Virus record (IMG/VR): IMGVR_UViG_3300002137_000182
Coordinates: 1 to 42,069 of that record
Direction: 5' to 3' (one strand)
DNA: 42,069 nt
Source: a virus
The notes under the pieces are model-generated. The model did no database searches. It was given only the letters and a program-made list of their open reading frames with translations, and was not told where the DNA came from. The translations under genes and the position numbers were made by a program. Below, piece after piece: positions 6,213 to 19,108 of this stretch. Position 1 is the first letter of the stretch; each line of letters opens with the position of its first letter.

Positions 6213-6626
6213 TTATTTACCCCACTTACCATTTTGTACCAGTTGGGCAATAATACCATATACTGAAAGGTCTGCGAATGTGTCTTGAATTGACTCACCT
6301 ACTTCATCGGGTTGCCCAAAAACTACCAATTGTTTAATTCTCTGAATCTTATCATTCAATCTGAAAAATAGCCCAGTTAATGAGAGTTTAATGTCATCTT
6401 TGGTTTTAAGGTCAGTACCTACTGAAATGTTACCAGGCCCATAGTTACGTTGTTTTTTACAAAAGGTTTCATATTGTTCCCACATGATACGTTTATATTC
6501 ATCCATCATTACAGGATAGGTTGACTCACAAAACTCCCTTGCAGTTTGTTCAGTAGTTTTATTAGTCACAATTCGTTCTCCATTATGGACAACTTTGGTT
6601 TTTGATTCTCTTATTACTTCAGCCAT
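6213..6626 (-). CDS. Nmad1/DUF1599-like nucleotide modification associated protein
   Basis: This 137-residue all-helical protein shows the pattern of the DUF1599 family (nucleotide modification associated domain 1). It has a KKQRNYGPGNI segment, then LTGLFFRLNDKIQRIKQLV, then ESIQDTFADLSVYGIIAQLV. The E..D and DK pairs would bind metal, as in MazG-like helical enzymes. The family is named for its association with phage genes that make or use modified nucleotides; its own reaction is not settled. The ATG overlaps the stop of the clamp loader small subunit gene, and a terminator-like hairpin follows, so it is the last gene of the replisome operon. Confidence 0.75.
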   Translation of the reverse strand: MAEVIRESKTKVVHNGERIVTNKTTEQTAREFCESTYPVMMDEYKRIMWEQYETFCKKQRNYGPGNISVGTDLKTKDDIKLSLTGLFFRLNDKIQRIKQLVVFGQPDEVGESIQDTFADLSVYGIIAQLVQNGKWGK

Positions 6627-7522: not shown

Positions 7523-8440
7523 TTACTTAATTGTTGATATAATATTAATTAACATAGCCATGGTGTTGATTTCTTTATCAACCGCCATAGCATCTTTAAA
7601 TTGACCATCTGCAATATGCAGAATAGTCTGACCTACCTTACCATTTGCGTACTCATCAACCTTCTCATAAAGAGTTTTATATAGAGGAGTAAAATCACGA
7701 ACCTTTGAATCGGCAATGATTTGGCGAATGGTGGTAAACATTGTTTTAGGGTCACTATTATTTTGGAGAGCCATTACAACTTCCTCAGCGTAGTTTGCCT
7801 GAATGTTTGATTGTGAATCAATCACAACCTTACCATTAATAACTTGTCGTTGTGCGGAGTTTAACACTCTACGAATATCAGGGTATCCACTATTTACCAA
7901 TACAGCAAGGTCGGCGTTTTCAAACGTAACACCTTCTTCGGTTAAGATGTGGTGTAGTCGTTTTGCAACATCTTTCTTTGATGGTGGTGTAATAGCGAAT
8001 GTCTGACATCGTGACTGAATCGGGTCAATAACCTTCTCCACATAATTACAAGTCAAAATAAAACGAGTGGATTTACTGAAAGTTTCCATCAAGTTACGAA
8101 GAGCTGCTTGAGCGTTTGGTGTCAAATAGTCTGCCTCATCCAAGATAATAACTTTCCACTTACGGAATCCCATTGATGATGCAAATCCACGAATTTTATC
8201 ACGGACAGTATCAACGTTGTTTTCATCCGAAGCGTTGATGTACATTAAATCACAATCAATTTCATTAGTGATAATTCTAGCGAGGGTAGTCTTACCGGTA
8301 CCTGCTACTCCATAGAGTAATAGGTGAGGTACATCCTCATTCTCAATGTAAATCTTTACTTTCTCAAGAATATGTTCATTTCCAACATACCCTTCTAATG
8401 TGTCTGGTCGATACTTTTCGACCCATAGTGAATTACTCAT
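7523..8440 (-). CDS. 44: Clamp loader ATPase large subunit, gp44-like
   Basis: From the start at 8440 (MSNSLWVEKYRP) the protein has 305 residues, close to T4 gp44 (319). A reading from 8482 adds 14 basic residues out of the overlapping gene and is less likely. It is an AAA+ protein with Walker A GVAGTGKTT, Walker B VIILDEAD, sensor 1 (FILTCNY) and the arginine-finger SRC motif (PIQSRCQTF), as in RFC and gp44. Four copies with gp62 load the gp45 clamp onto primer-template junctions. The ATG overlaps the stop of the DruA-like gene (ATGA), which shows tight coupling. Confidence 0.93.
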   Translation of the reverse strand: MSNSLWVEKYRPDTLEGYVGNEHILEKVKIYIENEDVPHLLLYGVAGTGKTTLARIITNEIDCDLMYINASDENNVDTVRDKIRGFASSMGFRKWKVIILDEADYLTPNAQAALRNLMETFSKSTRFILTCNYVEKVIDPIQSRCQTFAITPPSKKDVAKRLHHILTEEGVTFENADLAVLVNSGYPDIRRVLNSAQRQVINGKVVIDSQSNIQANYAEEVVMALQNNSDPKTMFTTIRQIIADSKVRDFTPLYKTLYEKVDEYANGKVGQTILHIADGQFKDAMAVDKEINTMAMLINIISTIK

Positions 8441-9624
8441 CTTCCTACTTCTTTTAAATACTTTTCTTTTGCATCTTCCCAAGACATACCAATAATGTCT
8501 ACATAGAATAGCGCTTCGGGTTTAATACGACCATCATCGTGTAGTTTTGAATAACGATTAATCGCTTTCTTCCTCCACCATTTCATGGTATAATCGTCAC
8601 CATCTCTGAACTTGTCTTTTAGTACGAGTTGGTCTTCAGTAATCTCATTACGAAGATACTCATTACCATTATCATACATTTGAGCAAAATACACCCCTCT
8701 TTTAAATCCGTGTTGATATTTGGAATTCTTCAACCCAAGCTCTTTAAAAATCATATTAATAATCTTTTGTTTCACTCCAGTCGCAGGACCATCAACACCT
8801 TCCTTTTCAGCGGTTTGTTTGGCGTACTCTTCTACTTTATTTTCTTTCATCCAATGATGCCATACTTCATATACGGAATCATCTGGTTTTGTAGCAACCT
8901 TTCCAGCAGATTCGCCTAAGGTTTTGAAATGTGGGATACCATTATATTGGGAGTGGATACCATACAAAGAAGTGGTGCCTACTGCTATTAGTGTTTGTCC
9001 GTACTTCTCCTTCCAATGTTGACGTACAATTGGGGAGGTTGTCAAGCAAGCAATCAGTTTTCCACCTAAAAAATTATATCCTAATGGTTGAGTACAGACG
9101 ATGGTGGAAGCGATGGTAGTGTGGTTCAACTTACCATGCTTATATTTATTATCCTGAGTCCACCCAATGTAGGTATCTCTAACTCCCAATGAGGTAACAT
9201 CTGAACCAAGTGAAACAAGCCCCAACATTTTACCACTAGCTCGGTCTTTAATGTATAACTTAACATTACGACCTGGGTTAGCGGAGAACGCCATTGTATG
9301 AATCAACTTACGGATTTCAGTCCATCTGGTCGATTCCTTTGAATCTTCAACAATCTCTACATAAGGGTCAAGTGCTTCAATTTCTTGAATTGTTTGTTCT
9401 TTATTATAGATGTCAGTTGGAGCCCAAAGTGTGTCATAGTGGAGTGCCAGCGCAGCTTTCCTCTTCATAGAGGTAACCATGTCTGAATTATACTCCTGCC
9501 ACTTTTTATACAACGTTTGTTCTTCTACTGTCATTGATGAAAGGTAATCCATATTTTCAATGAATTTACCTTTCTCAACATCATAGTTGAATTCTGGCTT
9601 CGTTGGTTCAGTATCCCAAAACAT
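8437..9624 (-). CDS. DUF4338/DruA-like protein inside the replisome operon
   Basis: This 395-residue protein has a core at about residues 105-245 that matches the layout of DUF4338, the domain of the Druantia defence protein DruA. The core runs KMLGLVSLGSDV, then RDTYIGW, then a NHTTIAST-type segment, then VRQHWKEKYGQTLIAVGTTSL and YNGIPHFKTLGESAGK. The C-terminal 150 residues (FKRGVYFAQMYDNGNEYLR and a basic stretch) are not recognised. The final segment also recalls the end of the Mom/GNAT core. The function of DUF4338 is not established to my knowledge. The gene lies between gp45 and gp44 with a TAATG and an ATGA overlap, so it is made together with clamp and loader. Confidence 0.6.
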   Translation of the reverse strand: MFWDTEPTKPEFNYDVEKGKFIENMDYLSSMTVEEQTLYKKWQEYNSDMVTSMKRKAALALHYDTLWAPTDIYNKEQTIQEIEALDPYVEIVEDSKESTRWTEIRKLIHTMAFSANPGRNVKLYIKDRASGKMLGLVSLGSDVTSLGVRDTYIGWTQDNKYKHGKLNHTTIASTIVCTQPLGYNFLGGKLIACLTTSPIVRQHWKEKYGQTLIAVGTTSLYGIHSQYNGIPHFKTLGESAGKVATKPDDSVYEVWHHWMKENKVEEYAKQTAEKEGVDGPATGVKQKIINMIFKELGLKNSKYQHGFKRGVYFAQMYDNGNEYLRNEITEDQLVLKDKFRDGDDYTMKWWRKKAINRYSKLHDDGRIKPEALFYVDIIGMSWEDAKEKYLKEVGR

Positions 9625-10319
9625 TACTTAATCTCTACAAGAAAATAATTAGACTTATAGCCATCGTGTTCAAAGGATGCGTGAGCAAGTCCCTGTGCTG
9701 ATACCTTCAATGATGAAGCTTTAGCATTACGATTAGCGTTCAAAATCTCTTTCAAATATTTAGCAGAGAATGAGATAGGTTCAACATCACTTTCACAAGT
9801 ACATTGAACATTGATAGAAATTCGGTTAGAGTTGATTTTAGAATATCCCAAAACAACTTCACCTTTATTATCCTTACACTTAAAAGTGAAAGTGTCAGAA
9901 TCCGACAATGCTCCCTTCGACTTAATAAACTTACTTACAAACTCTTCATCAAGTGTAATACTTGAACTAAAGTCAGGAAGTTGTTTCAAATCAGGAACAA
10001 CCGGAATAACGGATAAGTCAGCTAACATATAGTTTACTGATGTACCCTTGTCAGAGAATACCAAGGCTGCTTCACCTTCTGTAACGTCGATGTTTGAATC
10101 CAAAACACCAAGTAATCCTTTTAGTTGGGAAGTTGTGTAAACTCCAAACTCACCATTAGGAAATTCTTTGTCCTCACTTGTAACATCACCCAATAGAGTT
10201 TTGTCATCAGAAATAAAACGGACTGTGATTCCTTCATCGGTTGAGTTGATTTTTACGGATTCAACCTCACCCCCCAAGTTGTAACGGGCTACAAACCCTT
10301 CAAACGAACTTTTCTTCAT
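9624..10319 (-). CDS. 45: DNA polymerase sliding clamp, gp45-like
   Basis: This 231-residue protein matches T4 gp45 (228) in length and in its two repeated clamp domains. It opens MKKSSFEGFVARYNLGG, has the SQLKGLLGVLDS segment in the first domain, and ends with YLKEILNANRNA and a hydrophobic strand. It would form the trimeric ring that tethers gp43 to DNA and, in T4, also activates late transcription. It has its own promoter about 33 bases upstream, placed directly after the gp43 stop, so clamp, DruA-like protein, loader and downstream genes can be transcribed separately from the polymerase. Confidence 0.9.
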   Translation of the reverse strand: MKKSSFEGFVARYNLGGEVESVKINSTDEGITVRFISDDKTLLGDVTSEDKEFPNGEFGVYTTSQLKGLLGVLDSNIDVTEGEAALVFSDKGTSVNYMLADLSVIPVVPDLKQLPDFSSSITLDEEFVSKFIKSKGALSDSDTFTFKCKDNKGEVVLGYSKINSNRISINVQCTCESDVEPISFSAKYLKEILNANRNAKASSLKVSAQGLAHASFEHDGYKSNYFLVEIK

Positions 10320-10383: not shown

Positions 10384-12903
10384 TTAAAATCCAAAAAATT
10401 GTGATGCCAATTCAAGATTTGGATTTGGTTTCTCCCAATCCATAGCTTTATAAAAGTCATCCAGCTTATTATTCAGTTCTTTTTCCCAAATCAAATCATA
10501 GTCAATGTATTGTTGAATGAATGCGTTGATTTGTGGTGGGTCGTTGTGACCTGTAAATGCGGTGGTTTCTAACCCAAGTGGATTCTTCTTTAGATATACC
10601 CACTTGATTTTATCACCATCCTTCATTGGTTCATATTTAAATGCAACATCAAACTTTTTTAACAAACGATTATAAGTAATAGCTGCCTTAACGTGTGCTG
10701 GTGTTCCTTTTTCAAATTCACCCAACGCATAGTTAGTTCGTTTATTAATATACTTTGACATATCCTTCACAGCTGAATTCTTCGCAATATCAGTAAATGC
10801 CTGAGTACCCATATTTGCTTTGTAATCAATCAACTTAGTGTCGATTTTCTTTTTATCAACTCCTTTTAGAATATCTAACAAAACAGTTTCCATTACTTTC
10901 TTAAAATAAGTTGGAAATGATGACCTACGAACATCCAATCCCTTAACATCCATTTTATCACATGGTACAGTGTTATCGTTGATAATCCATTGAGCGTATC
11001 GTTTCTTTGATACCCAAAACCCACCCTTAGCAATAGTCTCTTGTTTGATGTCAAATCGGTGGGAGTTTACATTGAACATCTTTTTAGCCATTGTATCATA
11101 GACTTTATTGATGTGAGATTGTACCTCTTGTGCAACCGATAGAATCGCAGGAACCATTTGTTCATCAGAGTCTTCATCAATATTAGGGTTTCTAGCCCTT
11201 ACCAATGGAGCTGCCTGATAGAATACAGAATCCGTATCAGTATACACATTATAGTCACCTTCCTTACCAATTATACTTTTGTAATATTGGTTAGCAATTA
11301 GCTCCGTAGTTTTAATTACAGTCTGACCCGTGATGGTAGTAGCTTCAGCATTATCTACGTCATAGAATCTGAATGAGGGTAATCCCAATACTCCATATAG
11401 AGAGTTCAACATAATCTTCTGAACCAATTGTCGCTGAGAGTAGAACTTGTATAGGTCATCATTACCCTCATTACCATATTTCATCATGAGGTCTTTGTAC
11501 TCAACACGTTTATCAAACCAAACATTCAGAATCTCAGGTATTACACCAACCTTGTCTTGAGTATATAATACACCATTTGAAGATAACGAGTAATTTGATT
11601 CCGTAATTAGGGTTTGAAATTCAGCACGTGTTAATGGTGGGAATTCATTTCCTTTATCATCAACAATACAATATGAGTCAATGGTGTCCTTCATATAATC
11701 ATCAGATGTGAACGTCTTCAACTTACCAATTTTGGTTTCCGGTGAGGTATTGAGAGTCATAATAATTGATGGATATAGAGATGTCAAATCTAAGTCAAAT
11801 ACCCATTTGTAAAGACCCGGCTTTGGTTCTTTAACATATGCACCTGTAAACTTACCTTCACCATCAGTACCATCATCGTTCTTAGCAGCTCGACGTGGTT
11901 TGTCTGGCGCTACACGATTTGACCTTCGTAAGAATGTCAAGATAGCCCCCTCTAACCATTTTGATGAGAATACAAAATCTTCATAGAATACATGACCTGC
12001 GTGACAAATTGCCTGAGCTAATTCAATGAACTGAAGTTTCTTGTCCATGTCAACAACTAACTCAACATCCACTAAGTTATACTCAATAAACTTTTCTAAG
12101 TCATCTCTGAACAATTGGTCAAGGTTTCCTTCGTACTCAATCTTACCCCTACCTAACACAATATTAGCAATAGTGTCTAATCGGTAGTTAGGGAATTCTT
12201 GATAGGTAAAGTTCTTGTAAAGTGCAAGATAATCCAAACACGATACCCCTGCTATAATATAACGTTGTCTGTACTTATTCCAAGTAACTTTGTTAATTGG
12301 AGAAAGTTTGTTAGCCAACCGTTCCCCCAACACATTCTTTAAACGATTGTAAAGGTAAGTGATATCAAAGTAGTCGATATTCCACCCCGTGACGATTGTT
12401 GGATTAATTTCCTGCCACTTGTTTAGGAACGCAGTAAGTAGGTCCTCTTCAGTTTTGAATGAACGAACCTGAGCACCTTTAATAGTCTTATCAACATACT
12501 TGTTGCTGACTACATATACAAAGTAATCATTAGTAACCGAATCATGTCCTGCTATTGAAGTGATAGCATTACCTGCTTTCTCAATGCTAGGAAGGCCGGT
12601 GTTCATCTCAACCTCAATATCAAATGTTAATACATTATGACCAACTGACACCTCATCGGTATCACCATACGTGTCAATAAGGAATCGTGTAATCTCATTT
12701 ACATCGGATTCATAAAGTTCAAGATTATCTTCACCCTTCCAATAGCTTATCTTTTTAAGACGTTCTCCGTGAATAGAAGTAAAAGCACCATCACCATCTC
12801 TAAGATAAGCATATCTACGGTACTTACTTGTAAAATACCCCTTTTTATCATCCCAACAATGGATAAGGCCTGCTTCTTTTTCGTAGTATACATTTTGATA
12901 CAT
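10384..12903 (-). CDS. 43: Family B DNA polymerase, gp43-like
   Basis: This 839-residue replicative polymerase is slightly shorter than T4 gp43 (898). The exonuclease domain has Exo I FDIEVE, Exo II GWNIDYFDITYLYNR and Exo III YNLVDVELV. The polymerase domain has motif A DLTSLYPSII, motif B KIMLNSLYGVLG and motif C YTDTDSVF, all with the catalytic Asp residues present. The C-terminus ends ELASQFFGF, similar to the clamp-binding peptide of T4-like polymerases. Its ATG overlaps the stop of the preceding glycosyltransferase (TAATG), so it probably depends on an upstream promoter, the nearest being at 15276. Confidence 0.96.
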   Translation of the reverse strand: MYQNVYYEKEAGLIHCWDDKKGYFTSKYRRYAYLRDGDGAFTSIHGERLKKISYWKGEDNLELYESDVNEITRFLIDTYGDTDEVSVGHNVLTFDIEVEMNTGLPSIEKAGNAITSIAGHDSVTNDYFVYVVSNKYVDKTIKGAQVRSFKTEEDLLTAFLNKWQEINPTIVTGWNIDYFDITYLYNRLKNVLGERLANKLSPINKVTWNKYRQRYIIAGVSCLDYLALYKNFTYQEFPNYRLDTIANIVLGRGKIEYEGNLDQLFRDDLEKFIEYNLVDVELVVDMDKKLQFIELAQAICHAGHVFYEDFVFSSKWLEGAILTFLRRSNRVAPDKPRRAAKNDDGTDGEGKFTGAYVKEPKPGLYKWVFDLDLTSLYPSIIMTLNTSPETKIGKLKTFTSDDYMKDTIDSYCIVDDKGNEFPPLTRAEFQTLITESNYSLSSNGVLYTQDKVGVIPEILNVWFDKRVEYKDLMMKYGNEGNDDLYKFYSQRQLVQKIMLNSLYGVLGLPSFRFYDVDNAEATTITGQTVIKTTELIANQYYKSIIGKEGDYNVYTDTDSVFYQAAPLVRARNPNIDEDSDEQMVPAILSVAQEVQSHINKVYDTMAKKMFNVNSHRFDIKQETIAKGGFWVSKKRYAQWIINDNTVPCDKMDVKGLDVRRSSFPTYFKKVMETVLLDILKGVDKKKIDTKLIDYKANMGTQAFTDIAKNSAVKDMSKYINKRTNYALGEFEKGTPAHVKAAITYNRLLKKFDVAFKYEPMKDGDKIKWVYLKKNPLGLETTAFTGHNDPPQINAFIQQYIDYDLIWEKELNNKLDDFYKAMDWEKPNPNLELASQFFGF

Positions 12904-14042
12904 TAATTAGTCAATTTTTTATGTAGTTGTTTAATCATCTTATCTTCATTCAAAGATAGTTCCATTGCTCTCTGAAGTGACACATTGTCTTGTTCTTTTC
13001 TGAACTCGTCATTATCCAACATTTTATCTAAATATTTAAAGAATTCTTTCTTCGTTTTGAAGAATAACCCATTAGGGTCAATCTCGTGATAACAATCAGA
13101 GTCGTGCCAAATCATAGGAGTACCATTCATCATACAATCCGTACCACTTACCGACCATCCATAATTTGTCTGTTTCATCTGAACACCAACCTTACAATTC
13201 TGAAGTCGTTGGTAGTATTCGTGTTTTGGTACTTTAGTATTGTCTATCCAAGCGAATGGTATCTTACCACTTAATTGTGGAATCCACACCGTAAAATCTT
13301 GTCTTTGAGTACGATACTCTTCCATCATTTCAATAAACTTAGGATACCCTTTGTATGCTGCTGGTCTATGATTGAATACGATGACGTTATCTTTAGTATT
13401 CTTCACTTCACTCACAATCTTATCGTGTGGTACACCCAAGTTCCAAACAGTTAGGATAACATCCAACTTCTGAACGAACTCGTCATTAAACAATTCTTTA
13501 GCCTCAGCAAGAACTCTATTCTTTTGGTCTTGGGTATTTAGGTAACAAGTTTCCATTTGAGAAATACCCAGCAGTTCAATTGGTAACCATAACCACTTTG
13601 CCTTACCATCTCTTCTATCTACGCCATTACAAGGTAAGTGTTTACTTCCCTCAAACCAATGTGAATATCCTATAATTTTAGTTCCCCACTTAGCATATCT
13701 ACCAACTTGCGGCCAATCTGGGAGATGTGAATAAATTACATCATATTCACCATCCTTTAATGTCTTCATCAATTCGACTGATGGGAATGCTCGTTGATTC
13801 ATCATATCACCTGGAATGTGAATCTCAATTTGCTTTACATTTGGTAGATTTAACTTCTTAGTAACCTTACCCTTTGGAACTAATACATTCCAATAGTATT
13901 CACCACACTTATCTAATGCCTTGATATGATTATGTATCACATCAATAAACGAGTCTTTCTCAATATTAGATGAATTTGTAATATTCGGGATTACCAATAC
14001 TTTCCTAGCATTTTTGTAATCCACTGCTTCCCAAAAACTCAT
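12903..14042 (-). CDS. Glycosyltransferase-like GT-B protein
   Basis: This 379-residue protein has two Rossmann-like halves. The N-terminal half opens KVLVIPNITNSSNIEKDSF and contains YDVIYSHLPDWPQVGRYAKWG and GYSHWFEG. The C-terminal half starts VIVFNHRPAAYKGYPKFIEMM and has SVSGTDCMMNGTPMIWHDSD where nucleotide-sugar binding is expected. A clear EX7E motif is missing, so it is a divergent family member. It sits between the ParB-nuclease gene and gp43 with TAATG overlaps on both sides. A DNA glucosyltransferase role would suit this location but cannot be shown; a surface or virion glycosyltransferase is equally possible. Confidence 0.7.
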   Translation of the reverse strand: MSFWEAVDYKNARKVLVIPNITNSSNIEKDSFIDVIHNHIKALDKCGEYYWNVLVPKGKVTKKLNLPNVKQIEIHIPGDMMNQRAFPSVELMKTLKDGEYDVIYSHLPDWPQVGRYAKWGTKIIGYSHWFEGSKHLPCNGVDRRDGKAKWLWLPIELLGISQMETCYLNTQDQKNRVLAEAKELFNDEFVQKLDVILTVWNLGVPHDKIVSEVKNTKDNVIVFNHRPAAYKGYPKFIEMMEEYRTQRQDFTVWIPQLSGKIPFAWIDNTKVPKHEYYQRLQNCKVGVQMKQTNYGWSVSGTDCMMNGTPMIWHDSDCYHEIDPNGLFFKTKKEFFKYLDKMLDNDEFRKEQDNVSLQRAMELSLNEDKMIKQLHKKLTN

Positions 14043-15223
14043 TAATATTTACTTAATTGTAATTCAACCTTACCATTGTTTTCGAAAACATCACCATAGA
14101 TAATTCTGAACCCAGCATCATCTTTGTGGTTGTTCCAAACATTTGAAATTGGTAATGTGTGGCCACCGATACCAGCTGATTTCCAATCATTAGCATCTAA
14201 CTTAGTGAATATTAAACACAGTCTCTCAATATGTTCATCATAAGTCATTAAAATATATTGACCTTCTCTAATCCCCATACCACCTTTCCAAGTAGTAGAA
14301 TTACCCTTAAAGTTAGTAACCTTAATCTCAACCTTATCATCAATATCATTATGATATATATCAGGGTCGGTGGGATGGCCACTAGCACACCTCACATCAT
14401 GTCCCTCACTTTTTAATAATTCAGCACCAATAGTTTCCAGCAAATGAGAAATGTTACCAGCAATAGTACCTTTTGTAAAGTCCATAACTGGAGGATAGTC
14501 TACACCATTGATTTTAACAGTCAAAGCCATCATTTGTTTGATTGTATTAAAAGCTCGATTCACCATATTTGTAAAGAATGAATCTTCATAAATCTCACTC
14601 CAATCTCTATTAGGATTATTAGATGCGACAACCTTAACTTTATTTCTACCTGTGGCTTCTTTCCAAGCAAAATTAACTGCCATTTCACCAGAATCACATT
14701 TTTGTAACAATTCAGGTTTGTTGTTTTTGATATCAATCAACTCTTTTATAGTTTTTCGACAAGTACCCATTTGTTTAAGATGTATATTTTCATCTTTAGC
14801 AGGTCGAGCGATACCAAATTCTGTTACATATGCATTATTGAACTCTATAAATTCACTCAGTCTATCTGAATGTGAAACTTCTCGCCTAACATTACTTACG
14901 GCTAAATCCACTAAAGTACTAAATGGTTTATCATCACTTGGATATTCCGCATCAGTATATTCACACCATAAATCACAGCCTACGATTTTAGCCGCCTCAT
15001 ATCTAGTATGGCCAGAATCAATCAATCCATCTTTATGGATTAACACAGGTTGGATGTTGGGAACTTTTTTATCAGAAATTCGTTCTTTGTAGGTTTCTGC
15101 TATTTCTGCTTGCTTTTTTGATTCCTTCTCTTTGTTACTGTACAAATGAGCATTTTTAGGATTGGGTTTAAGTTGTGATGGATTAATCATCATCTTACCC
15201 TTTTTCTTTTTAACTTCTAACAT
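14042..15223 (-). CDS. ParB/Srx-like domain fused to a PD-(D/E)XK nuclease-like domain
   Basis: This 393-residue protein has two parts. Residues about 12-130 form a ParB/sulfiredoxin-like domain (NPSQLKPNPKNAHLY, then VLIHKDGLIDSGHTRYEAAKIVG, the characteristic GHTRYxAA box). Residues about 260-330 look like a restriction-endonuclease core: a conserved Glu in LLETIGAELLKSEGHDV, then PDIYHN, then VEIKVTNF (PD...EIK), followed by a tryptophan- and glycine-rich stretch. The combination suggests a DNA-binding or DNA-cutting enzyme, perhaps linked to modified bases. The gene follows two Mom-like genes after its own promoter and a possible 12-residue leader peptide. A basic N-terminal tail (VKKKKGK) precedes the ParB part. 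Confidence 0.65.
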   Translation of the reverse strand: MLEVKKKKGKMMINPSQLKPNPKNAHLYSNKEKESKKQAEIAETYKERISDKKVPNIQPVLIHKDGLIDSGHTRYEAAKIVGCDLWCEYTDAEYPSDDKPFSTLVDLAVSNVRREVSHSDRLSEFIEFNNAYVTEFGIARPAKDENIHLKQMGTCRKTIKELIDIKNNKPELLQKCDSGEMAVNFAWKEATGRNKVKVVASNNPNRDWSEIYEDSFFTNMVNRAFNTIKQMMALTVKINGVDYPPVMDFTKGTIAGNISHLLETIGAELLKSEGHDVRCASGHPTDPDIYHNDIDDKVEIKVTNFKGNSTTWKGGMGIREGQYILMTYDEHIERLCLIFTKLDANDWKSAGIGGHTLPISNVWNNHKDDAGFRIIYGDVFENNGKVELQLSKY

Positions 15224-15229
15224 ATTTTT

Positions 15230-15268
15230 TCATTTAAACATTAAATATTCGAGGTACTCCGACCTCAT
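15230..15268 (-). CDS. Possible 12-residue leader peptide upstream of the ParB-nuclease
   Basis: An ATG at 15268 opens MRSEYLEYLMFK and stops 6 bases before the ParB-nuclease ATG. The -7 box of the promoter ends 7 bases upstream, so this ATG would sit at or very near the mRNA 5' end. The first codons form a GC-rich hairpin (15251-15266, GAGGT and ACCTC). A regulatory leader peptide is possible; so is chance. Confidence 0.35.
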   Translation of the reverse strand: MRSEYLEYLMFK

Positions 15269-15275
15269 TGTTATA

Positions 15276-15307
15276 CAAATATACAACATTTAGTTGGGTT
15301 TACCAAC
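15276..15307 (-). promoter_or_regulatory. Promoter with upstream TAACA direct-repeat element
   Basis: The minus strand reads GTTG (15304-15307), 20 bases, TATATTTG (15276-15283), an exact match to the Bacteroidota -7 consensus TAnnTTTG. AGTTGG and CCAACT form an inverted repeat. The TAACA-N6-TAACA element is at 15312-15329, just after the stop of the second Mom-like gene. Confidence 0.82.
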
Positions 15308-15341
15308 TTTTAATGTTATTAAATTGTTAAGTTATCCACAA

Positions 15342-16136
15342 TTACCAAAAATTTACTACATTCTCCGGCGTGTATGTTTCGTGATGTACTACCTCTGATA
15401 GGAACTCACTTGCATCTTTAGGATATGGGCTTACTTTGTGTTTCAATTGTTTAGCCAACTTACGTTTCTCAGATTTGTTCTGACCCAATACTTGGATGTA
15501 TCGGTGTTTAGCAGATTCCTTTTTTCTCCAAAACTCCGTGAGGTTTTCTTTACCCATTACAGTTTTGAGATGTTCCAAATTATGAGAGCCCCAACGTGAG
15601 AATACAGTTCTTGAGTGTATCCACTTATGTGGGTTACTTTGAATTGATATAGAATAGTTCGGCATCAGTTGAATATCACGACAATCTTGGTATAACCAAT
15701 TTGTTGCTTGATATATACCACCTAAATGTAATTGTTCGGGGTCAGCGTAACTGAGTAACATCTTGATATTGGGTGCGTTCTCCTTAATCCATTGAAATGA
15801 TTGACCCATAGCGTATGACTCTATATTAGACCCATACCCATCGTGAATAAACAATCGTGTCAATTCCAAACATTGGTCTTTCTCTAACCCATCTATAACG
15901 GACTTGATTGCTGACCTACCTACTGGATACCCATAGACTAAACATCCGATGAGTTGTTCTGAATTACCTAATACATCATTCTTATTAGTTTCGTAGAATA
16001 CCCCAAGAGCGTATCTACACATGGTCCATGCATGAGAGTAATGATGTGTTACAATCATCTCTTTTGCAGTAGCCTTACCAATCTCTCGAATGGTAACCTT
16101 TGACACATCTACGTAGTGTTTATTCTCCTCTTTCAT
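15342..16136 (-). CDS. Mom-like DNA modification protein, second copy
   Basis: This 264-residue protein is of the Mom type (GNAT-related fold). Characteristic parts are IVTHHYSHAW near the N-terminus, CLELTRLFIHDGYGSNIES, and SYADPEQLHLGGIYQATNWLY. Mu Mom converts adenine to N6-carbamoylmethyl-adenine and so protects phage DNA from restriction. It is clearly paralogous to the preceding gene: the two share the block order, and the ATG overlaps the preceding stop by 17 bases. Differences in the core (LHLGG here, GHCGT there) and in the C-terminal tail suggest they recognise different sites or act as a heteromer. The tail from about 205 is strongly basic. Confidence 0.8.
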   Translation of the reverse strand: MKEENKHYVDVSKVTIREIGKATAKEMIVTHHYSHAWTMCRYALGVFYETNKNDVLGNSEQLIGCLVYGYPVGRSAIKSVIDGLEKDQCLELTRLFIHDGYGSNIESYAMGQSFQWIKENAPNIKMLLSYADPEQLHLGGIYQATNWLYQDCRDIQLMPNYSISIQSNPHKWIHSRTVFSRWGSHNLEHLKTVMGKENLTEFWRKKESAKHRYIQVLGQNKSEKRKLAKQLKHKVSPYPKDASEFLSEVVHHETYTPENVVNFW

Positions 16137-16878
16137 TTGGTTCTAATTTTCTAACTTCCATCTCAAGGATATCCGTTTTCTTTGAATAAGGTAGTATTGG
16201 GTGTTTAATACTTTTTAGAAGTTTCCTACGTTCACCCCCTTTTGTTAGTATATAAACGTATCTATGCTTTCTTGGTTCTTTACGAATCCAAAATGGGCTG
16301 GTTACTTGCTTCTGAATTTCAGATGGGTTATTCGTTCCATAGGTTGGGAATATGGTTCTACCATGTTGCCATTCACCATCTTCACTAAACTTAAAACTCC
16401 AGCTATCATTATATCGTAGTGAATCACCTTGATATAACCAATTGGTTGCTTGATAAATTGTACCACAATGCCCTTCCTTCGGGTCTGAGTATGATATAAG
16501 TGCTTTTATATGTGGTACATTTTCTCTTAACCAATTAAAAGTCTGTCCTAAAAACCAACTTTCAATGTTAGACCCATACCCATCAAAAACAAACAATCTA
16601 ACGAGTTCTAAAACCTCAGTTCTATCCAACTCTTCAGAAATTGATTGACCACTCAATCTCCCAATGGGGTCGCCATAACAAGCAACACCTATCAATTTAT
16701 CAGTAGACTCAAAGAATGAATGTGAATCATCTTCAACATACACACCAATAGCATAAGATACCTTTGTCCATAGATGTGAATAGTGATTTTTCACTATTAA
16801 CTCCTTTGCCACAGACTTAGAAATCTTTCTTACTGATAGTTTTGATGTATCACAATATAACTTTCCCTCTTCTTTCAT
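16120..16878 (-). CDS. Mom-like DNA modification protein, first copy
   Basis: This 252-residue Mom-type protein is a paralogue of the next gene. It has IVKNHYSHLW, VLELVRLFVFDGYGSNIES and SYSDPKEGHCGTIYQATNW, the conserved block of the family, then a WQHGRTIFPTYGTNNP segment and a basic C-terminal region (RKEPRKHRYVYI). Mom proteins carry out carbamoylmethylation of adenine in phage Mu and need no known special nucleotide precursor. Its ATG directly follows the stop of the small HTH gene, so MazG-like protein, HTH protein and both Mom-like proteins form one operon. Chemistry in this phage is inferred from the family. Confidence 0.8.
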   Translation of the reverse strand: MKEEGKLYCDTSKLSVRKISKSVAKELIVKNHYSHLWTKVSYAIGVYVEDDSHSFFESTDKLIGVACYGDPIGRLSGQSISEELDRTEVLELVRLFVFDGYGSNIESWFLGQTFNWLRENVPHIKALISYSDPKEGHCGTIYQATNWLYQGDSLRYNDSWSFKFSEDGEWQHGRTIFPTYGTNNPSEIQKQVTSPFWIRKEPRKHRYVYILTKGGERRKLLKSIKHPILPYSKKTDILEMEVRKLEPNERGE

Positions 16879-17082
16879 TTATTGATAGTCGGTAAATTCC
16901 CCAAATAGGATATGTGTCCAAGTCTCACCCTTTACGATTTTACGAATGTTTGCAGGAGATACACCATTGTTTCGGGCTAATACTCTGGTATTACGATGAC
17001 CAACGGCCCACAACTTACGAATAGCCCTAACTTGGACTTCCGTAAGCTTATGTTGTGGGTGTGATTCTCCTCTTAAAGACAT
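16879..17082 (-). CDS. Small helix-turn-helix protein, 67 aa
   Basis: The start at 17082 (MSLRGESHPQHKL) is chosen because it lies right after the stop of the preceding gene (TAAGATG). A reading from 17112 only adds residues that overlap that gene. The protein is a single winged or simple helix-turn-helix of the kind found at the end of HNH and GIY-YIG endonucleases: KLTEVQVRAIRKL, then TRVLARNNGVSPANIRKIVKGETW. No nuclease motif remains. It may be a regulator of the Mom-like genes, as Com is for Mu mom, or the relic of a homing endonuclease. Confidence in the fold is good and in the role is low. Confidence 0.7.
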   Translation of the reverse strand: MSLRGESHPQHKLTEVQVRAIRKLWAVGHRNTRVLARNNGVSPANIRKIVKGETWTHILFGEFTDYQ

Positions 17083-17083
17083 C

Positions 17084-17503
17084 TTAAACCTCTTCATTAA
17101 ATGGAATTTCAAATTGAGGGGGCTCCTTCAAAAAAATTCCAATATTAGGAGGTGAGTAATTAGGTCCTTTTAATACCTTACCATCTTCTCTGTAGATGGG
17201 GTTACCATCAGCACCTAATTTAGACATATTGGAACGATGTACTTCATCAAAGACATCTTCAATTACATCTTGCATTCCATGAGCAACCATAGTACCCAAT
17301 AGGATATATAATTGGTCCGCAAGAGCATCGGTTACTTCTATGAGGTCGTCATTATTACAAGCCTCTAAATATTCAACCAACTCTTCTTTACCCAATTCGT
17401 ATCTCAACATAGATTCGATAGGACCAATTAGTGTTGGTTTGGTGTTTCGTGTTGAATTGTATGCGCTTTGGAATTCCCAAAGATGTTGTAACTGTTTTTT
17501 CAT
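17084..17503 (-). CDS. MazG-like / phosphoribosyl-ATP pyrophosphohydrolase-like protein
   Basis: The start at 17503 (MKKQLQHLWEFQSAYN) gives 139 residues. This all-alpha NTP-pyrophosphohydrolase-like protein has E..E in YELGKEELVEYLEAC, then DALADQLYILLGTMVAHGM, then EVHRSNMSKLGADG and REDGKVLKGPNYSPP. These fit the PRA-PH/MazG-related family common in phages. The Glu and Asp residues would bind metal and hydrolyse a (d)NTP to the monophosphate. Its role may be to remove unmodified or unwanted nucleotides, or to act on (p)ppGpp-like signals. A promoter places its -7 box 4 bases before the ATG, so the mRNA may be leaderless, and this gene opens the Mom operon. Confidence 0.78.
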   Translation of the reverse strand: MKKQLQHLWEFQSAYNSTRNTKPTLIGPIESMLRYELGKEELVEYLEACNNDDLIEVTDALADQLYILLGTMVAHGMQDVIEDVFDEVHRSNMSKLGADGNPIYREDGKVLKGPNYSPPNIGIFLKEPPQFEIPFNEEV

Positions 17504-17507
17504 ACTA

Positions 17508-17538
17508 CTAATATACAAAATTTATTTTAATATACAAA
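17508..17538 (-). promoter_or_regulatory. Promoter for the MazG-like/Mom-like operon
   Basis: The minus strand reads TTTG (17535-17538), 19 bases, TATATTAG (17508-17515). It overlaps the 3' end of the carbamoyltransferase gene. The stretch AAATTTTGTATATTA occurs twice in tandem here. No inverted repeat is present, unlike at most related promoters. The ATG follows after 4 bases. Confidence 0.72.
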
Positions 17539-19108
17539 ATTTATTTATGATTAAAGCATCCAACCCTGAATTATAGAATGTGTTAATGGCGTCTTCGGGT
17601 GAATCCACCAATGGTTCACTTGCCACATTAAAACTTGTATTCATAAAAACAGGCACTCCAGTTAATTCTTTGAATTTCATAAGAGCTGCGTGGATGATTG
17701 GGTTTTGAGATTTATTGATGGATTGTGGTCTACAACTATTATCGATATGGGTTGTCGCTGGGAGTATACTCCTCCACTCCTCTTTTACTTCACACGCCAT
17801 TAACATAAATGGTGATAGGTGTTTTGATTCAACAATGTCGTGGAAATCTTCCTCAGTCATAACTGGCGCGAGGGGTCTCCAAAACTCTCTATTTTTAATT
17901 GTGTTTACTCTATCAAGATTTTCTTTTTTAGTCGGATTAGCAAGAATTGACCTATGACATAACGCACGAGGGCCTACTTCAGATTTACCTTGAAAATAAC
18001 CCACCACCATATCCTCATTTATAAGATTAGCAAGATGTTCTGATGGGGATACTCTTTGATAGTTTATATCATGTTTTATAAGATAATCTTCAACATACAA
18101 GTCGTCAAACTCACTACCCCAATATGCGGTATCAAAGTCAATATCTGGCCATGTTGCTGTCATTTCTTTATGACATAAAATAGCAGCACCTAATGTACAT
18201 CCGCTATCGTTTGATGCCGGTTGGATAAATAACTTATCAATATCCGTTCGTTTGGATATCTTACCATTAGATGTACAATTTAAAAATGAACCACCAGCTA
18301 AACATAGGTTATTAGACTTACCATTTGACATCAAACTATCCAAATATGAAGATATATATTTTTCAAATAATGACTGAATGGTAGATGCTAAATTTACAGA
18401 ATCAGTTGATAGTATATTCTTATCTATATTAAGTTTTATAGTACTATTCATTTTAGAACAAAAATACTCTTTATATGCATTAGAATCACATTCAATAAGG
18501 CCAACATGGTCTGTATTTGTAATGGAAAGCTCAGGAAGTAATGTAGTATCCACTTCACCATAACAAGCAAGCCCCATGGTTTTACCTTCATGACTATTAG
18601 GTTTAAATCCTAAAAACCAAGTAGCCCACGCATAAAACCCACCCAACGTGTGGTCGCTCTGGATTACACCCAAATTATTTAGTGTTTCACCATCAAAGTA
18701 TCCATATATACCCGCGTTGGAGTCTCCAAATCCATCTGATGTCATATAATTTGTAGTTTCAAACTTAGATGGTATAATAGAACTAATCGCATGGCAATTA
18801 TGGTGTGGATACCACATCAACTTTTCAACTGAGTCTTCTGATAACAAGCTTGATACGAACTCGGTCATACGATTACTGTTATTGTCTTGTATGTTACCAT
18901 CTTGGCCTATTGCTATTTTATCAACGTCAGCTAATGTTATGTTTGCCGTATTTAAGCAAAATTCAATTGCTTTTAGTGGAAACATATTTGGAGCGTGTTT
19001 TATTCTATTAAACCGCTCTTCCTCAGAAAAGGCAACCAGACTACCATTCTTTATTATACAAGCGGAGGTATTTCTACTTGATAAGTAACTTATTCCAAGT
19101 ATTATCAT
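17522..19108 (-). CDS. Carbamoyltransferase of the NodU/CmcH/TobZ family
   Basis: This 528-residue protein has the two-domain layout of carbamoyltransferases: an N-terminal Kae1-like domain and a C-terminal YrdC-like domain. Visible blocks are AFSEEERFNRIKHAPN, WYPHHNCHAISS (metal-binding His pair), TSDGFGDSNAGIYGY, CLAGGSFLNCTSNG, SEVGPRALCHRSILANP, FWRPLAPV and FMNTSFNV. These enzymes move a carbamoyl group from carbamoyl phosphate, through carbamoyl-adenylate, to a hydroxyl. Near the N-terminus the family normally has GHDxSA; here the matching stretch reads SRNTSA, so a His and an Asp are changed. Whether the enzyme is active is therefore open. Neighbours suggest a sugar or modified base as acceptor. 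Confidence 0.85.
   Translation of the reverse strand: MIILGISYLSSRNTSACIIKNGSLVAFSEEERFNRIKHAPNMFPLKAIEFCLNTANITLADVDKIAIGQDGNIQDNNSNRMTEFVSSLLSEDSVEKLMWYPHHNCHAISSIIPSKFETTNYMTSDGFGDSNAGIYGYFDGETLNNLGVIQSDHTLGGFYAWATWFLGFKPNSHEGKTMGLACYGEVDTTLLPELSITNTDHVGLIECDSNAYKEYFCSKMNSTIKLNIDKNILSTDSVNLASTIQSLFEKYISSYLDSLMSNGKSNNLCLAGGSFLNCTSNGKISKRTDIDKLFIQPASNDSGCTLGAAILCHKEMTATWPDIDFDTAYWGSEFDDLYVEDYLIKHDINYQRVSPSEHLANLINEDMVVGYFQGKSEVGPRALCHRSILANPTKKENLDRVNTIKNREFWRPLAPVMTEEDFHDIVESKHLSPFMLMACEVKEEWRSILPATTHIDNSCRPQSINKSQNPIIHAALMKFKELTGVPVFMNTSFNVASEPLVDSPEDAINTFYNSGLDALIINKFCILK

Follow-up and report, generated by a model that had tools for sequence, protein, structure and literature searches.

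The combination of DNA-modification and nuclease-like genes within the replication region of a phage raises the question of whether they serve a common purpose or merely share a neighborhood. The question is posed here by a group of marine phages, represented by a viral DNA of 42,069 nucleotides (IMG/VR record IMGVR_UViG_3300002137_000182, positions 1 to 42,069, hereafter the window), where genes for two Mom paralogues (MomA and MomB), a fusion of ParB-like and PD-(D/E)XK-like domains and a GT1 glycosyltransferase are followed by the family B DNA polymerase gene (polB) and a homologue of DruA. A first-pass annotation had proposed a restriction-modification (RM)-like module composed of a MazG-like enzyme, a small helix-turn-helix (HTH) protein, both Mom proteins and the fusion nuclease; all these genes indeed lie on the minus strand in the places assigned to them, and the extent of the unit has to be widened by GT1 and the DruA homologue, which had been left out. 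We see about an even chance that the locus is a unit of phage DNA self-marking and attack, with a nuclease sparing the marked DNA. MomA, MomB, the DruA-type GNAT enzyme and GT1 would then build a base modification on phage DNA, presumably on adenine by analogy with Mu, and the protein encoded after MomB would be a nucleoside triphosphate (NTP)-regulated endonuclease cutting DNA devoid of the finished mark, be it of the host, a plasmid or a competing phage. The shield (Mom and DruA) would stay constant, and the nuclease, usually together with its GT1, would be swapped between close relatives. Protein families, catalytic-type residues, gene order, co-occurrence and exchange, and in part folds, were computed using relatives retrieved from IMG/VR by searches with the two Mom proteins, the fusion, PolB and members of two further families encoded at the same place. 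The source contigs are metagenomic pieces, many of them near-copies of one another, and failure to see a gene in such a piece is weak evidence.

Membership of both MomA and MomB in the Mom family follows from 163-164 bits against PF25680 (cut-off 27.1), with positions 2-202 of 202 covered. Their mutual identity is 43%, and that of MomA to Mu Mom is 27%. Serine S107 (MomA numbering) is invariant in 22 aligned Mom members and corresponds to S124 of Mu Mom (Mu numbering checked), the mutation of which inactivates Mom (S124A is named in the title of structure 8bv8), and the equivalent residue is kept in both paralogues; family and residues together thus point to base modification by the two proteins. 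In the tree, MomA and MomB form adjacent sister clades (support 97% and 99%, respectively) with the single Mom of a Polaribacter phage outside, so that, as far as the phylogeny tells, the pair is the product of one old duplication with both copies kept and mostly paired. The 17-base overlap of the two genes noticed earlier is real. Of 60 distinct pairs in relatives, 38 have it at this same length, 10 at 14 bp and 2 at 11 bp; conserved in 50 of 60, it cannot be ascribed to chance. A few relatives (L124:11523-12134, also G016, G032 and G046) have a third, diverged Mom homologue, encoded between polB/clamp on one side and DruA on the other. In L198 (2785-4951) MomA and MomB are separated by an insertion coding for an N6/N4 DNA methyltransferase (1e-23) and for a protein of 415 aa in which HNH-like residues are seen, resembling a complete restriction-modification pair.

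The proposed fusion architecture of the next protein is supported, as a ParB fold joined to a predicted domain like that of restriction endonucleases (REases). Its nine homologues, down to 21% identity, have in common the ParB-type nucleotide-binding motif G-[HN]-T-R, and residues D293, D295, E299 and K301 are invariant in all nine sequences, composing a D...E-x-K metal-binding motif. Structures were predicted for this fusion and for the DruA homologue. The model of residues 9-109 is a ParB/Srx N-domain (M. xanthus ParB 7bnr, Z 10.8, rmsd 1.7 Å over 78 residues), and residues 203-385, modeled with pLDDT of about 40-78, align to type II REases (NaeI, Z 9.4; SfiI, 6.7; SwaI, 6.3; EcoRV, 5.8). 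A nuclease role of the fusion is therefore supported by motif and predicted fold. Profile searches in Pfam, PADLOC, NCBIfam and PHROG gave nothing above threshold, and derivation of a mechanism from profile matches alone was dropped for this reason; a Pfam match to PF03235 (GmrSD_N, DUF262) was not found either, unlike for the corresponding proteins of some relatives. No relatives of the fusion occur in 50,697 phage records and none were confirmed in bacterial genomes, which is no proof of their absence elsewhere. A non-cutting function, as nucleotide hydrolase, regulator or partition-like factor in a loosely functional neighborhood where GT1 decorates virions or host glycans, might be read from the glycan-type cluster upstream (GLF, glycosyltransferases and carbamoyltransferase) and from the weak nuclease model; invariance of the D/E-x-K residues at 21% identity, the REase-like fold match and the strict pairing with GT1 described below make it very improbable.

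The gene after MomB turned out to be exchangeable among relatives. In dozens of them MomA-MomB lies between the HTH gene and polB and is then followed by a gene of this slot, the occupants of which include the ParB/PD-(D/E)XK fusion, its diverged ParB/nuclease form (L063) and GmrSD_N+HNH proteins (L055, L101, L086, L184 and L198; in L055 PF03235 at 2.7e-9 and HNH at 2e-5), another design uniting a ParB-superfamily NTPase with a nuclease. L088 has a related protein of the DGQHR type that ends in an HNH-like part, L070 a DGQHQ protein and L022 one resembling helicases. Small HNH, EndoVII or GIY-YIG proteins are the occupants in L069, L146 and L126, and the slot is empty in L017, L024-L031 and L056. 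Domain matches support a nuclease role for several of these proteins. Two large families of 590-680 aa, S100 and S11, related to each other by profile comparison, were recorded in L011/L104 and in L100/L060/L015/L019/L084 and have no Pfam, PHROG or PADLOC identity; profile comparison of S100 gave no homology to GmrSD, and both are putative nucleases by HNH-like residues seen by eye and by position. How abruptly the slot changes is seen from L011 and L015, which are 99% identical over 8.9 kb to just past MomB, have slot genes wholly different in DNA sequence, and return to 97% identity over the next 6 kb, the boundary of exchange falling at about the spacer ahead of the slot gene; L010, with a ParB-nuclease and a different GT1, has the same flanks at 88-98%. 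The near-constant Mom pair beside a changing nuclease renders a simple cognate Mom-nuclease pair unlikely. These alignments thus argue against a nuclease tuned to the target of Mom alone, and a broad protective mark or GT1 as the specific partner would fit better. A gene for a TET-associated glycosyltransferase (TAGT, 1.5e-22) is inserted between MomB and the ParB-nuclease in L007 (522-1331), and a TAGT-like gene directly precedes the GmrSD-type nuclease in L241.

The same exchange is also cited for what we regard as the main rival explanation, according to which the slot encodes modification-dependent nucleases of a Type IV-like kind that attack the modified DNA of competing phages and vary as the modifications of competitors vary, the mark made by Mom, DruA and GT1 being ignored by the own nuclease. 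It draws on the GmrSD_N domains of several slot proteins, on the fast exchange of the nuclease beside an unchanged Mom pair and on a virus-coded precedent, the modification-dependent endonuclease reported in an archaeal virus (PMC10101028). We nevertheless judge it unlikely, since the fusion protein of the window has no GmrSD_N match and the slot is coupled to GT1 and to modification genes of GNAT type, which hints at a part played by the phage's own mark.

This coupling was quantified for 54 distinct slot proteins with a length of at least 350 aa. GT1 directly follows the slot gene in 52 of them, one of the other two lying at a contig end and one (L008) having GT1 beside DruA elsewhere. GT1 exists as two types, A and B, 28% identical, and each nuclease family pairs with one type (ParB-nuclease, S101, S55 and S70 with A; S100, S11, S88 and S63 with B), the exception being the distant, intermediate S101 group. 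Judged from these neighborhoods, it is GT1, not Mom, that tracks the nuclease; the pairing of types is no proof of a functional pair, as adjacent genes may travel together by linkage. No relative of GT1 was found by similarity among phage records or solved structures. Upstream of the 54 slot proteins stands Mom in 36 cases, DruA in 7 and a TAGT glycosyltransferase in 1, the remainder being at contig ends, having Mom or DruA farther off, or having none in view. Nuclease families searched on their own likewise adjoin Mom or DruA.

Among the 80 listed loci of the PolB family, to which the PolB-family counts below apply, ParB/GmrSD or S100/S11 slot genes are present in 17 of 32 scored Mom-positive relatives vs. 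none of 26 Mom-less ones (Fisher test on unique PolB, p = 6e-5), an association clear by count and resting on few independent events. It bears on another explanation, by which mobile or homing endonuclease genes settle at the polB-side site, the nucleases being selfish and Mom guarding against host restriction only. polB is a usual home of homing endonuclease genes, and the small HNH, EndoVII and GIY-YIG occupants, with the L126 protein matching a homing endonuclease PHROG at 2e-9, are of the expected kind. Yet the main families of 390-680 aa are of ParB/GmrSD type or unknown and almost invariably have GT1 next to them, and slot genes adjoin DruA in Mom-less phages and are absent from the Mom-less relatives of the same polB family, so that we find this origin rather improbable for the slot as a whole.

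As for DruA, the gene of a known defense system, we know of no chemistry assigned to it. Its homologue in the window is a member of the family PF14236 (88 bits, cut-off 27), and the presence or absence of Mom and DruA agrees in all 63 PolB-family genomes with both states known (37 both, 26 neither). On the PolB tree this corresponds to six independent changes, all concordant (p = 0.031); two Mom-positive contigs lacking DruA end just past polB. Where Mom is absent, DruA often occupies its place by the slot gene. The model of the DruA homologue has a GNAT fold with Mu Mom as the best solved match (Z 9.9), tied with SpeG and AAC(6')-Ib. Common ancestry could not be established at the sequence level, profile comparison being non-significant (score 25.6; the highest among 30 shuffled profiles was 21.0, and unrelated ones gave 19.6); as modeled, DruA and Mom agree in fold only, and Mom is tied with other GNATs. 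The DUF4338 domain has previously been called a GNAT domain (PMC10853773) and DruA-like proteins were reported from cyanophages (PMC12774648); our literature search found no paper treating Mom and DruA together with phage. In an otherwise different virus (L204:1420-3229) the DruA gene overlaps the Mom gene by 11 bp. In cyanophages (L211, L213, L215 and L216) DruA-like genes adjoin gp44 and gp62, which encode the clamp loader, or lie between the two, and one of these records labels the protein "methylcarbamoylase mom."

In Mom-less relatives the positions of Mom and DruA are taken by different DNA-modification genes, for TAGT or N6/N4 methyltransferases. L128 has an ATPase-GNAT fusion and a TAGT (3e-35) there (7788-8969 and 12276-13529), and L157 and L187 have methyltransferase-like genes (1.3e-4 and 6e-7). 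This supports the view that Mom/DruA is one set among several that can replace each other in DNA modification, and suggests that these phages have a general site for such genes next to those of replication.

Several observations weigh against the self-marking and attack unit. The activities of all its proteins are predictions from sequence and models, the nuclease half of the fusion is modeled with low confidence, and the S100/S11 families have no recognized nuclease domain in profile searches. MomA and MomB remain about 99% identical where the nuclease is replaced outright, the nuclease-Mom association reduces to 3 informative independent pairs (p = 0.25), and the contig L008, outside the 63 genomes compared for Mom and DruA, has a ParB-nuclease, DruA and GT1, Mom not being found in its 148 kb. 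The substrate of GT1, finally, may be glycans instead of DNA. On the other side, modification and nuclease genes are adjacent and jointly retained, L004 and L008 being the exceptions, and the expectation that Mom and nuclease-like genes should occur together in relatives is confirmed. What endures of the RM-like module initially suggested is two intact Mom genes and a nuclease-like gene kept together far beyond the window. Base modification, a contribution of GT1 to the mark, control by NTP, DNA cleavage, unmodified DNA as the target and sparing of the phage's own marked DNA are what we infer. A more specific version, to be entertained only tentatively, is that the three GNAT enzymes (MomA, MomB and DruA) with GT1 build a hypermodified base, and that GT1 and the ParB- or GmrSD-type nuclease form a swapped cognate pair of protection and attack against other phages, that is, a new class of virus-coded self/non-self system. 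The locus as a whole would bring together three questions that can be tested jointly, namely Mom-family function outside Mu, DruA function and the reason why lytic phages carry restriction-like nucleases, and the exchangeable slot offers new nuclease-like families, each in a matched natural background.

Two other components initially included in the module are not specific to the unit. Of 69 distinct MomA genes, 59 have the HTH gene at a distance of no more than 400 bp, and the protein had been taken for a possible regulator in the position of Com. It has no cysteine, vs. 6 in Mu Com, which speaks against a zinc-finger translational activator, and the Com-like assignment was rejected; moreover, its gene also stands directly before polB in Mom-less relatives, abutting it in L139. 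MazG was rejected as a core part owing to its patchy distribution, being found in some relatives only and missing from many.

Nucleases of T4 and chloroviruses degrade host DNA, and the slot protein could likewise break unmodified host DNA to feed replication, Mom protecting the phage genome. Such a role agrees with the location of the locus among replication and nucleotide-metabolism genes and with the action of chlorovirus restriction enzymes encoded beside methyltransferases (PMC7019647), but the slot is empty in many Mom-positive relatives and rapid nuclease exchange is unexpected for a housekeeping role, making host degradation distinctly improbable. The endonuclease that chloroviruses direct at host DNA is encoded next to a DNA modification gene (PMC7019647), and adjacency of the two virus-coded genes is common to both cases, whereas the chlorovirus pairs unite a methyltransferase with a cognate sequence-specific enzyme in a eukaryotic host, and here GNAT-type enzymes accompany a nuclease changing independently. 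SspE couples a mark on its own DNA to the cutting of foreign DNA (PMC13251355). GmrSD/SspE systems (DUF262/ParB-like NTPase with HNH) share with the locus a ParB-superfamily NTPase domain combined with a nuclease, as in the GmrSD_N+HNH slot genes of relatives, and differ in that here the genes are phage-coded and lie beside Mom, and that the fusion has a PD-(D/E)XK-like domain without a DUF262 match. Compared with Mu Mom/Com, the Mom family and its catalytic serine (S124) are conserved, whereas here Mom exists as two paralogues, accompanied by a partner of DruA type, a glycosyltransferase and a slot for nucleases, and the Com zinc finger is absent. DruA of Druantia (DUF4338) has a family member here, which unlike it is a phage gene gained and lost together with Mom. 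Microbacterium phage Lifes (L217:3777-6605) has the same order HTH, Mom, DNA polymerase, although its polymerase is DNA polymerase I and its HTH protein has no significant similarity.

Table 1. Features of the locus in order of transcription (positions in the window).
Feature	Position	Strand	Basis and remarks
MazG-like nucleotide pyrophosphohydrolase	17084..17503	-	PRA-PH PF01503, 4.1e-14; not a constant member
Small HTH protein, 67 aa	16879..17082	-	PHROG HTH/HNH-associated, 1e-4; upstream of MomA in most relatives
MomA, Mom family, predicted GNAT-type DNA modification enzyme, 252 aa	16120..16878	-	PF25680, 8.5e-48
MomB, second Mom paralogue, 264 aa	15342..16136	-	PF25680, 4.3e-48
Spacer, 118 bp, with promoter-like TAnnTTTG element GTATATTTG ahead of slot gene	15224..15341	-	By eye
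ParB-fold + PD-(D/E)XK REase-like fusion, 393 aa, slot occupant	14042..15223	-	Alignment and model/fold comparison
GT1 glycosyltransferase	12903..14042	-	Weak Pfam Glycos_transf_1; directly downstream of slot gene, sharing one base with its stop codon
Family B DNA polymerase (polB), fixed anchor of locus, context	10384..12903	-	Family marker
Sliding clamp-like protein, context, between polB and DruA homologue	9624..10319	-	Position and likeness to relatives; no Pfam match
DruA/DUF4338 homologue with predicted GNAT fold, flanked by sliding clamp and clamp loader	8437..9624	-	PF14236, 7.7e-25
Clamp loader	7523..8482	-	After DruA homologue

The element of the spacer (Table 1) resembles a Bacteroidota promoter, and a similar one precedes the slot gene in relatives as well, the spacers being compared by eye. 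Since the best phage-record matches of MomA and MomB belong to a Polaribacter phage and the element is Bacteroidota-like, the host is likely bacteroidotal. Upstream of the unit, a NodU/TobZ-type carbamoyltransferase (17522-19108, PF16861 at 2e-61), present only in loci of the window type, adjoins genes for a 2-oxoglutarate oxygenase, GLF and glycosyltransferase. A phage enzyme of this family produces 5-carbamoyloxymethyl-dC (PMC8670742); given the neighbors, a glycan role is as likely here as DNA modification. At the other side of the locus, the product of 6213-6626 weakly matches DUF1599, "nucleotide modification associated domain 1" (3.6e-5, slightly below the cut-off).

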